Origin: Oribacterium sp. P6A1
GTDB lineage: Bacteria > Bacillota > Clostridia > Lachnospirales > Lachnospiraceae
Direction: 5' to 3'
DNA: 58,288 bases
Assembly (NCBI RefSeq): GCF_000702885.1
Contig: NZ_JNKO01000018.1
Coordinates: forward strand, 1-58,288
The position numbers and the translations under genes were made by a program. Below, piece by piece: positions 23,772-58,288 of the stretch. Under the pieces are notes generated by a model. The model searched no databases. It saw only the letters and a program-made list of their open reading frames with translations, and had not been told where the DNA came from. Position 1 is the first letter of the stretch. Every line of letters begins with the position of its first letter.

Positions 23772-25502
23772 TTATGCCGCAGTTGTGGCTGTATCATTTT
23801 TAACCTCTGCCTTTGTCGCAAGTAGCTTTTTGATACATGTTACTGCTACAAGAACACCAAGAACGATAAGGAATGCTGCAACTATGAGCTGTAATCCGTT
23901 TACGAGGAAGGTGCCTGTACCTGCTGAAAGCGCCTTGACATTTCCGATGATGTTAAGAATGATAGCCGAGAAGGTCACTGTAAGCATTATTCCCATAGGA
24001 ACATAAAGCATCTTTCCATTTCGTCCTGTAGCCTTCAGGAATACTGCAATACCGATGAGTACGAGAGCTGCAAGCATCTGGTTTGCAGATCCGAAAAGTG
24101 CCCAGACATTGGCATATCCACCGAGACAAAGGAGATATCCGAAGAAAAGTGTGATGGTGGTTGCAAAATACTGGTTGAGGCAAAGCTTCTGCCATGCAGG
24201 GATCTTTGACTTGTCTGTTTCGTCACTTGCAAAAAGCTCCTGGAATGACATCCTTCCGATTCTTGCAACTGAATCAAGGGATGTAAGCGCAAGGGCTGAT
24301 ACACACATGGTCATGAAAACATTGGCAATGCTGTTTGGAACTCCGAAGGTTGAAAGGAATCCGGCAACACCCTGTGAAAAGATCTGGAAGGGTGTGAGGT
24401 CTGCAGGAACTGCACCGTTTACAGCTACGGCTCCGCAAACAAGAAGTGAGCAGACACCGAGAAGTGTTTCAACTACCATTGCTCCGTATCCGACACAAAG
24501 CATGTCCTTTTCATTCTTTACAGTCTTTGAAGATGTTCCTGAAGAAACAAGGCTGTGGAAACCTGAAACCGCTCCGCAGGCGATGGTAACAAACAGTGTC
24601 GGGAAAATGTAGCTCTGTGAACCGTTCGCTGTCGTGAGTACGAATCCGTTGAAAGCATTGAGCTTCATCTCAGGATGGGCTACAACAAGTCCGAGAACAG
24701 CTCCGATGATCATACCAAGAAGCATGAATGTAGTAAGGTAATCTCTCGGCTGCATGAGAAGCCACATAGGCATAACGGATGCCGCAAAGAGATATGCCAT
24801 GATAACGTAGTTCCACTGCGGTGCTGTAAGATACATCGGCATAGCCATTCCTACTGCGAACATAACTACAAGAAGTCCGATGGCTACTACAACTCTTACG
24901 CCTTCCTTCATGTTCTTGAAGTGTTTTTCAACAAGACCGAAGGCCATGGCTACGAAGATAAACAACATTGAAATGGTAGCAGCGGCAGCTCCGTTAAAAT
25001 TCTGAGCTGTAGTTCCGTCTGCAGCCTTTGTGAAGCCGTTAAATGTGCTTGATACCATGGATGTGAATGCTGCGATTACCAGCAATGTGAAAAGCCAGCA
25101 GAACAGTGAGAAGAATCTTCTTCCTGCTTTTCCGATGTACTTCTCGATAACCATGCCGATTGACTTTCCGTCATTTTTTACCGATGCATACATAGCACCG
25201 AAATCCTGAACAGCACCGAAAAAAACGCCGCCGAACAGAAGCCAGAGAAGACATGGCACCCATCCGAAGGCAGCCGCAAGAATCGGTCCCTGAACCGGTC
25301 CTGCTCCGGCAATTGATGAAAACTGATGTGCAAATACTGTCAGCTTTGAAGATGGCACGTAGTCCTCTCCATCCTCATACTTTGTGGCCGGTGTAATTGC
25401 TTTCTCATCGATGCCCCAGGTTTTTGCAAGGTATCTGCCGTAAAGGAGATATCCTCCCAGCAACGCAATACCTGCAACAAGTAAGATAACTAAACTATTC
25501 AT
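23772..25502 (-). CDS. cstA: CstA-family carbon starvation / peptide-pyruvate transporter
   Basis: A 576-residue membrane protein with about 15 hydrophobic segments, of the CstA/YjiY family. Members import pyruvate or peptides. Diagnostic segments are 'AHQFSSIAGAGPVQGPILAAAFGW', 'FGAVQDFGAMYASVKNDGKSIG' and 'AVSGFHSLVSSGTSSKTVKNE'. The ribosome site (GGGGAGGGG) is unusually G-rich. The promoter lies in 25503-25883, which also carries one of the repeat arrays. No neighbour shares its function. Confidence 0.92.
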   Translation of the reverse strand: MNSLVILLVAGIALLGGYLLYGRYLAKTWGIDEKAITPATKYEDGEDYVPSSKLTVFAHQFSSIAGAGPVQGPILAAAFGWVPCLLWLLFGGVFFGAVQDFGAMYASVKNDGKSIGMVIEKYIGKAGRRFFSLFCWLFTLLVIAAFTSMVSSTFNGFTKAADGTTAQNFNGAAAATISMLFIFVAMAFGLVEKHFKNMKEGVRVVVAIGLLVVMFAVGMAMPMYLTAPQWNYVIMAYLFAASVMPMWLLMQPRDYLTTFMLLGMIIGAVLGLVVAHPEMKLNAFNGFVLTTANGSQSYIFPTLFVTIACGAVSGFHSLVSSGTSSKTVKNEKDMLCVGYGAMVVETLLGVCSLLVCGAVAVNGAVPADLTPFQIFSQGVAGFLSTFGVPNSIANVFMTMCVSALALTSLDSVARIGRMSFQELFASDETDKSKIPAWQKLCLNQYFATTITLFFGYLLCLGGYANVWALFGSANQMLAALVLIGIAVFLKATGRNGKMLYVPMGIMLTVTFSAIILNIIGNVKALSAGTGTFLVNGLQLIVAAFLIVLGVLVAVTCIKKLLATKAEVKNDTATTAA

Positions 25503-25621
25503 TTCAGCCCCTCCCCTATAAAGAAACTTTGGTATTACCTATAGAGTAGCACCAAAGCGTCGAGCCATGACATACAGTTATGTTATCCGAGATATTATGT
25601 TTCATTATATCCATTTTGATA

Positions 25622-27351: not shown

Positions 27352-27476
27352 GAGAAAATAAAAAATCCGCAAAGCTTTTCTAATGGGGAGGAGGAAAAAC
27401 CATGCGGATTTAGTGTACCGTGCACTGCCATTGGATTGGTCACAGCGCGTCAACAATGTCTACATATTGTATTTAT
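27352..27476 (-). ncRNA. candidate small RNA with anti-Shine-Dalgarno loop
   Basis: On the minus strand, an extended -10 box (TGCTATAAT, with TATAAT at 27483-27488) would start a transcript near 27476. It ends at a typical intrinsic terminator: arms AAATCCGCA and TGCGGATTT (27403-27411 and 27363-27371) followed by TTTTTATTTT. The terminator loop contains CCUCCUCCCC (complement of 27385-27394), which can pair with strong ribosome sites. This is the design of Firmicute trans-acting small RNAs. There is no coding potential: the plus-strand site GGGGAGGAGG leads only to a 3-codon frame. Length is about 125 bases. It is inferred from sequence only. Confidence 0.5.
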
Positions 27477-27632
27477 GGATTTATTATAGCACAATCTCTT
27501 GCTTTTACCACTGCGTTTTAAGCGTTTTTATAATCTTTTTATATATAATTCATAAACTTTTCTTTATCAAAATTTCATTTCGTTTTTCTTATATTTTTGC
27601 TTAATTTTTCTTCATTTTGTGTGTGCCGAAAC

Positions 27633-36339: not shown

Positions 36340-36530
36340 ATTATCAGGCAAATGCCCATATAATATATAAGTCCTACGCATTGCTTCGCTTTCGCTCCCG
36401 CCATGCTACAGAAATCTCGAATCCGCGCTAACGCGCTACTTCTCGATTCCTGTTGTCGTATCAGATGTCTGTGCATACTTACAAGCAAGCTTGACGTATA
36501 CACAGCCGCCTGATACAGGACTTATACAAT
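36340..36530. repeat. palindromic element upstream of the aldolase gene
   Basis: Outer pairs are TATCAGGC/GCCTGATA and TATAAGTCCT/AGGACTTATA. Inside is a GC-rich stretch with GCTTCGC, CTCGA, CGCGCTAACGCGC and more. It is about 190 bases. It lies between the terminator of the TRAP operon and the aldolase start, so it would be in the leader of the downstream genes. It recalls the element at the right window end, which also has an ATAAGTC/GACTTAT end motif. A MITE-like element or leader structure is possible. Confidence 0.55.
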
Positions 36531-39754: not shown

Positions 39755-40144
39755 ATTTTCCTCCTTTAATGAGTTGTCAGACCCTTTAGATTTTGTTTTG
39801 CGCAAAGGCCCGACAATAGGTGACAAGTCATGGAAACTCTGTCACATTCTTAATGCAATTAAACGTTCCGCTTAAAATTCTTCGTTCTGAAACGTTTCAC
39901 TTAATAAGCCAAGATTAATCCCTCGCAGGATAATTGTCAACAAACTTTTATAAATATTGTATATCATCCGCATGATATATGAATATATTTTATGCATCAT
40001 TACAACCGCCGTATATTTGCAGCCCTGCTGCAACTTGGCAAAACATTACGGTATTTACTTTTAAATGGTTAAATGTTAGTATAAAAATCACAAAAATGAT
40101 ATATTTTCTAAAACGTTTCAGTTCAGGCAGCAGAGGAGGATTTT
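39755..40144. promoter_or_regulatory. divergent control region with LacI-type operators
   Basis: This 390-base gap contains no gene. It has a perfect 12-base palindrome TGAAACGTTTCA at 39888-39899, a second AAAACGTTTCA at 40110-40120 and a half site AAACGTTCC at 39861-39869. They flank divergent promoters: dctP on the minus strand, the YcxB-like gene on the plus strand. They match LacI/GalR-family operators (or cre). The LacI regulator at 30219 is the likely binder. CcpA is an alternative. Confidence 0.65.
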
Positions 40145-58108: not shown

Positions 58109-58288
58109 TATTATGATGTTAGTGTCAAAAGTCGATATCGGACCGCTTCGCGCTAAGCGCTCTCGCGTTCCTCCCACATTCCGCACTCTCAGGCCGATAA
58201 ATCGTCCTTTCGTGCTCCATGTGGGGCGTGTCATGAAGTCTATCCTCCACTTTTGTGCAAGCACAAGTGGAGGAAGACTTATGACACT
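58109..58288. repeat. palindromic element at the right edge
   Basis: Three copies of a GTGTCA(T)nAAGTC motif occur (58112, 58228 and inverted at the end). A near-perfect hairpin of about 28-bp arms runs from 58228 to 58288 (GTCTATCCTCCACTT-TTGTGC/GCACAAGTGGAGGAAGAC). Further inside are GATATCGG/CCGATAAATC and CCCACAT/ATGTGGG pairs and GCGCTAAGCGC. It lies in the leader of the binding-protein gene and continues to the window end. It resembles the 36.4-kb element. Confidence 0.6.

Follow-up and report, generated by a model that had tools for sequence, protein, structure and literature searches.

The locus analysed here raises the question of what an apparently non-coding unit of about 125 bases contributes to Oribacterium sp. 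P6A1, on the minus strand of a 58,288-nucleotide contig of this gut bacterium (NZ_JNKO01000018.1; this whole stretch of DNA is hereafter called the window). An initial annotation had described there, between an extended -10 promoter and an intrinsic terminator, a candidate small RNA whose terminator loop could pair with strong ribosome sites. The unit is present as described and is conserved; what the annotation missed, a tandem pair of NrdR-type boxes and a hairpin with a recurring loop, matters more than what it described. The reading that we favour, with a probability of roughly 0.6, is that the RNA, here termed sRNA-a, is an NrdR-controlled anti-Shine-Dalgarno small RNA carrying a docking hairpin for a putative clade-specific RNA-binding factor. 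Directly visible in the sequence are the conservation of the gene, the two boxes at a set distance, a hairpin that co-varies and recurs, and a C-rich loop that is exposed in predicted folds.

The sRNA-a gene spans positions 27352 to 27476 (minus strand; about 125 nt from an inferred transcription start). Its extended -10 promoter, TGCTATAAT, is located at 27483-27491 (minus strand) and shows small sequence changes among the seven loci at which the gene was found. The terminator hairpin (27363-27411, minus strand) consists of stem arms 27411-27403/27371-27363 (9 + 8 bp) and a 13-nt loop, followed by a T run. Within the loop lies the anti-Shine-Dalgarno motif CCTCCTCCCC (27385-27394, minus strand), of which CCTCCC is found in the loop at all seven loci. 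A promoter and terminator scan of the window listed neither element, missing the promoter because it has no -35 box and the terminator because its loop exceeds 8 nt. The 125-nt RNA folds better than most shuffled versions of itself (z = -2.95; 2 of 200 shuffles were equally good), and in the predicted fold of the window copy nine of the ten bases of the C-rich motif, CCUCCUCCCC, are unpaired with a probability of 0.95 or more, so that the proposed exposed loop agrees with the prediction. The strongest ribosome-site-like sequence on the other strand, GGGGAGGAGG, for which the lack of a gene had been remarked upon, is the complement of this loop. Taken alone, the C-rich motif is no more than expected by chance: CCTCCTCCCC occurs exactly once in the window, and allowing up to one mismatch yields three matches against 3.05 expected. 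Since the motif is not improbable by itself and is weak as stand-alone evidence, conservation had to decide on sRNA-a.

A DNA search detected the sRNA-a locus in 7 of 61 genomes, all of one genus and amounting to 7 of the 17 Oribacterium genomes, the window's included. The six further genomes matched with E-values between 3.2e-36 and 6.7e-6; for one of them (G014) the match covers only 30 bases, the rest of the locus having been recognised by reading the sequence. All seven loci retain the promoter, the hairpin in the middle and the terminator, and the conservation outside this genome on which the initial annotation had made its proposal depend is thus found, CCTCCC loop included, in the six other members of the genus. 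At the seven loci the predicted terminator stems have 17-19 base pairs and always enclose a loop of 13 nt; every loop contains CCUCCC, the only part of the C-rich loop common to all copies. Co-variation within the terminator is modest: in the six distinct sequences both partners change at 4 of 17 pairs, yet sliding the alignment by one column gives the same number, and 14 of 500 shuffles reach it as well. The genomic neighbourhood is partly shared: cstA lies downstream in three of the seven stretches (the window, JC7 and C9), four have a nearby gene whose product starts MAxNPIGA, and other neighbours differ; sRNA-a has its own promoter and its own terminator, and no constant partner gene. On the sense strand, no start codon is preceded by anything resembling a Shine-Dalgarno sequence in any of the seven copies, whose open frames diverge. 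Because the promoter, the terminator and the C-rich loop of the latter persist in 7 of 17 Oribacterium genomes, we consider it very probable that the minus strand carries a genuine small-RNA gene. A pattern search allowing three mismatches across 299 genomes of the family also matched the window's genome (G000) and three other places (L015, L016 and L018), which were rejected as copies after inspection by eye revealed no C-rich terminator behind them.

Two NrdR-type boxes flank the promoter core on the minus strand: box 1, AAGCAAGAGATTGTGC, at 27489-27504 (approximately -28 to -13; 8.2 bits) and box 2, ATACAATATGTAGACA, at 27457-27472 (approximately +5 to +20; 9.4 bits), the latter reading ACAAGATATAG, as in many nrdD boxes, in five of the seven orthologous loci. 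The boxes were scored with a matrix derived from regions upstream of nrdD in Oribacterium, which carry ACACAAGATATAGTGT-like boxes, a second box (at least 5 of 6 core letters) following 31-32 bp on in 13 of 14 regions. These 14 regions contributed 28 boxes and their reverse complements, the training boxes having been picked with a consensus; of 21 nrdD loci, four partial and three of a second type were left out of the matrix. With this nrdD-trained matrix, the tandem site is the top site of the window at 17.6 bits (the next reaches 7.9), and it is likewise the top site in all seven orthologous three-kb loci. The window genome's pair is the weakest of the seven (the other six score 21.8-27.7 bits), and its individual boxes score below the main nrdD boxes (14.8-20.2 bits). 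The distance between boxes is always 32 bp, that is, two 16-bp boxes and a 16-bp spacer in 7 of 7 loci, and PMC12051234 reports a spacer of 15-16 bp for most NrdR sites. The paired boxes with such a spacer that mark promoters of the NrdR regulon are accordingly present at every locus, and NrdR itself is encoded in all 17 genomes of the genus. The boxes overlap the -10 element and the start region, which fits repression by NrdR, and the sRNA-a promoter appears, on this sequence evidence, to be probably under NrdR control. The layout across the promoter resembles that upstream of nrdD in the same genus, but the controlled gene would here be a small RNA rather than ribonucleotide reductase or the nrdR operon; no NrdR-controlled small RNA turned up in searches of open-licence PMC papers. 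An A/T-rich element, TATAAAnnCnCTTAAA, at 27516-27533 of the window (minus strand), some 12-29 bp upstream of box 1, is also kept in all seven loci and is a candidate UP element or site of another regulator.

Between promoter and terminator, at 27419-27451 (minus strand), lies a hairpin composed of a variable stem, a UGA bulge, a CCA/UGG helix and an AUCCAA hexaloop. Its 15-nt loop, TGACCAATCCAATGG (27428-27442, minus strand), reads UGACCAAUMCAAUGG across copies and recurs in the window's own genome on another contig. Allowing up to one mismatch, the loop was found at 35 places in 10 of the 17 genomes of the genus, against one for a reversed-pattern control, and 27 of the 30 places read have complementary stems of differing sequence; three loop look-alikes within the genus (L025, L040 and L047) were kept out of the model after reading. 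In a 33-column alignment of 16 places, 97.3% of cells are paired, against 69.0% in shuffled versions, none of the 500 of which came as high, and the covariation is 0.718 versus 0.155. All seven pairs of the outer stem show changes on both sides, and the three inner pairs never vary. A covariance model (R1) built from these 16 places and searched with strict filters yielded 31 matches in 9 of the 17 genomes of the genus and none in 81 other genomes, the weakest at an E-value of 2.7e-7 (cut-off 0.01). Fifteen of the 31 were not part of the model; the window copy, at 43.3 bits, is one of those that built it. Some of the constancy of the loop follows from the procedure, because only places matching the loop with no more than one mismatch were collected as copies, and the model search that could have revealed loop variants ran with those strict filters.

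The hairpin is largely confined to Oribacterium. The exact loop core occurs in 68 stretches of a collection of 84,980 species, in which the window's own record was left out and the genus is represented by strains C9, JC7, WCC10, NK2B42, RUI013, KHPX15 and UBA4274. A stem of at least six pairs, counting G-U, accompanies 27 of 27 core matches in Oribacterium/JC7 but 3 of 43 elsewhere, and we therefore rejected as true hairpins the 40 outside matches with fewer than six stem pairs; five matches on viral contigs have no stem. In an nrdD tree of 16 genomes (without G012), seven of the eight hairpin-bearing genomes fall in one supported clade, outside of which lies G001 with a single copy. No gathering-score match to Rfam 15 covers the hairpin or sRNA-a, whether in the window, at the site itself at E-values up to 5 (three sub-threshold matches only) or at six other hairpin loci (only a tRNA). 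Elsewhere on the minus strand of the window, two copies of the Clostridiales-1 RNA (RF01699) were found at 36369-36523 and 58130-58288 (90.4 and 97.9 bits), the second of which stops roughly 40 nt short of the start codon of a lipoprotein-like gene.

When assigned by eye, 30 of the 31 hairpin copies fall in four recurrent contexts, in each case with the hairpin oriented like the promoter, terminator or gene beside it; the remaining copy is a terminator in G001. Seven belong to sRNA-a. Eight belong to a second small RNA, sRNA-b, the promoter of which contains two TTGTGACA-like repeats 11 bp apart, an arrangement that we take to be that of an OmpR-type response regulator, and the terminator loop of which, UCCUCCC, contains GUCCUCCCU; CCUCCC is present in this loop in all eight copies read. 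In the window's genome sRNA-b is L022 (G000:C11:31309-31323, minus strand; terminator loop UCCUCCCU), with orthologs L020, L021, L023, L026, L034, L036 and L037. A further eight copies form a terminator before pyrC in which stem and loop adjoin directly. A strong ribosome site precedes it, as does an ORF of six codons that runs up to the stem, its stop codon at the foot of the terminator. In leaders L046, L038, L039, L041, L044 and L024 the ribosome site is GGAGGUAGGG-like and the ORF encodes MKPTAI or similar. The pyrC leader looks like a translation-sensitive attenuator.

The last seven copies, from three genomes, lie in 5' leaders, among them leaders of BREX and other defence genes; the gene that follows encodes an orphan protein of 81-87 aa in five cases and is an HTH_26 gene in two. 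Downstream were found BrxA, BrxB and BrxC (L086), a type II methyltransferase (L108), an HNH endonuclease (L110) and a protein with SLFN_AlbA_2 and a match to the PADLOC pAgo model (L101), which amounts to a defence-type match at four of the seven loci. The 1197-aa protein of L101 gave no match, nor did the L106 protein in a Pfam scan; the L083 stretch ends soon after the leader, and L123, judged by eye only, resembles L101.

That one loop stays constant while its stems vary freely, and does so in otherwise unrelated transcripts of a single clade, suggests a protein-binding site, and the UGACCAAUMCAAUGG-loop hairpin would be that of a putative RNA-binding factor of this Oribacterium clade, which may also bind sRNA-b with its C-rich loop, the pyrC leader terminator and the defence-gene leaders. 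Among the proteins examined for this role (LoaP and the 81-87 aa protein) no candidate was found. Hfq (PF17209) was detected in 0 of the 17 genomes of the genus, some of them incomplete, and in 5 of 14 control genomes, which gives no ground for placing sRNA-a in the Hfq-dependent class. LoaP and its dfn hairpin offer a parallel, in that a leader hairpin is read by a protein before long operons of Gram-positive bacteria, but LoaP reads a UNCG-type hairpin (PMC12691694) and the hairpin described here has an AUMCAA hexaloop. LoaP was rejected as a general binder on this loop type and on its distribution, second NusG copies having been found in the hairpin-free G006 and not in the hairpin-bearing G010, G011 and G015. 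The NusG-paralog frame of the window's genome (G000:C6:100999-101283) contains a stop codon, and the listed copies of its relatives show none. The 81-87 aa protein beside five defence-leader copies was rejected as a universal binder because it occurs in only 3 of 17 genomes; all five copies found of this family (L174-L178) lie directly behind the hairpin, one with an internal stop, and the two versions scanned had no Pfam match.

The initial annotation had suggested post-transcriptional control of uptake genes, pointing to a GGGGAGG in the cstA leader and a 9-base match in the dctP leader (39755-39766). Both sequences exist as written, and they fare differently. The cstA translation start region, with AUAGGGGAGGGG (25494-25532, minus strand), is the best predicted pairing partner of the sRNA-a loop among 51 window genes (-19.4 versus -16.2 kcal/mol for the next) and among 212 sampled Oribacterium genes. 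In the six genomes with both genes, cstA ranks 1 (window genome), 4, 25, 69, 26 and 26 of 212 against its own sRNA-a, the start coordinates in G001 and G002 being unreliable; G004 gave no cstA match. Ranks of 25-69 in four of six genomes led us to reject cstA as a clade-wide target, and on predicted pairing it is the likeliest target in this genome, not across the clade. As for dctP, it ranks 10 of 51 with the 16-nt loop stretch and 3 of 51 once the paired U-rich flank is included; it is not special, because the UUUU part of its match lies in the predicted stem. Predicted pairing between the sRNA-a loop and mRNAs that bear the hairpin is for the most part ordinary. For sRNA-b, predicted pairing with start sites falls in the top 1-4% of 153 genes for the defence leaders L067, L074 and L078 and for pyrC of KHPX15 and UBA4274, and is ordinary for others (pyrC of WCC10 at 0.54, of G000 at 0.13-0.16); these values are only suggestive, since the idea followed one match and the background of 153 includes pyrC genes.

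Among described RNAs, several invite comparison with sRNA-a. CsrB/CsrC-type systems, in which a small RNA and mRNAs share one protein-binding hairpin, resemble it in that common hairpin, but sRNA-a has a single hairpin, its loop is without GGA and it carries an additional anti-Shine-Dalgarno loop. With the anti-Shine-Dalgarno class of trans-acting small RNAs it shares a conserved, unpaired C-rich motif complementary to Shine-Dalgarno sequences (a 13-nt predicted loop at 7 of 7 loci). The alpha-r14 or cuckoo RNAs (NfeR1, Sinorhizobium; RF02344), which act at the start site of mRNAs for transporters and regulators to silence them, likewise leave a CCUCCUCCC-type anti-Shine-Dalgarno motif unpaired in hairpins with differing stems (PMC10746234). 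They have three C-rich hairpins, whereas sRNA-a has one C-rich loop, placed in the terminator; sRNA-a further differs in belonging to Oribacterium, where Hfq was not detected, in its extra constant-loop hairpin and in its NrdR boxes. It falls outside RF02344, scoring 18.5 bits against a gathering score of 58.8 (E 0.26), and the CCUCCUCCC left unpaired in three hairpins that marks this family is represented in sRNA-a by one loop only.

We infer transcription, NrdR binding, target pairing and the hairpin factor from these features, and the mechanism that we propose is as follows. When dATP is low, NrdR would leave the two boxes straddling the promoter, and sRNA-a would be made together with ribonucleotide reductase mRNA. 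Acting as a stand-alone trans-acting small RNA, it would pair through its 13-nt terminator loop, with CUCCUCCCC, to G-rich Shine-Dalgarno sequences and block translation; being exposed, the C-rich loop should obstruct ribosome sites as those of alpha-r14 RNAs do (PMC10746234). A speculative extension, which we consider improbable as it stands, is that in this clade, where Hfq was not detected, the hairpin, as UGACCAAUMCAAUGG on whatever stem, serves as a shared address on the small RNAs and on some of the mRNAs that they control, one protein joining the partners and turning a generic CCUCC loop into a specific silencer.

Other explanations account for parts of these data. The main role of both small RNAs might be to withhold the hairpin-binding factor, by titration, from the leaders of pyrC and of the defence genes, their C-rich loops being incidental. 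The presence of the same loop in both small RNAs and in leaders, and the mostly unremarkable pairing of the sRNA-a loop with hairpin-bearing mRNAs, speak for such a sponge; known sponge RNAs, however, carry many binding sites whereas these carry one hairpin each, and the persistence of CCUCCC in every terminator loop read (7 of 7 for sRNA-a, 8 of 8 for sRNA-b) would be unexpected of a roleless sequence. We regard this as unlikely, if worth keeping in mind. Rather doubtful, too, is that sRNA-a is an anti-Shine-Dalgarno RNA expressed constitutively or under other control, with boxes that resemble NrdR sites by chance or after decay and a hairpin that only stabilises the RNA. The low scores of the window genome's boxes (8.2 and 9.4 bits) would suit it, and hairpins can protect the 5' regions of RNAs, but a hairpin with no other task would hardly be expected to preserve a loop of 15 nt while its stem changes, and the boxes are the top site, identically spaced, at all seven loci.

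A more radical departure would take the hairpin as a DNA element (a recombination, transposase or uptake site) that lies in transcribed regions by chance. It does recur at several places, some beside defence genes, which are often mobile; against this stand the 30 of 31 copies in four recurrent contexts whose orientation they share, the stems that differ between contexts yet co-vary, and the five viral-contig matches without a stem. We consider the idea very improbable. We give almost no credence to the last alternative, that there is no RNA gene but a short plus-strand protein gene (ORF 27383-27604, or a start behind GGGGAGGAGG): a 73-aa frame is indeed open and the complement of the C-rich loop resembles a ribosome site, but only a three-codon frame follows GGGGAGGAGG here, start codon and frame differ between copies, the loop region contains indels, and promoter and terminator are kept on the minus strand.

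The NrdR-controlled anti-Shine-Dalgarno RNA with a docking hairpin thus remains our preferred reading. Found in one genus only, the hairpin connects small RNAs with the leaders of a pyrimidine gene and of defence genes in bacteria without detected Hfq, and it offers a direct bait for a small-RNA-handling protein in Hfq-less Clostridia. If the shared-address extension is true, dNTP status, through NrdR, would be linked with pyrimidine synthesis, through the pyrC leader, and with anti-phage operons (BREX and restriction genes).
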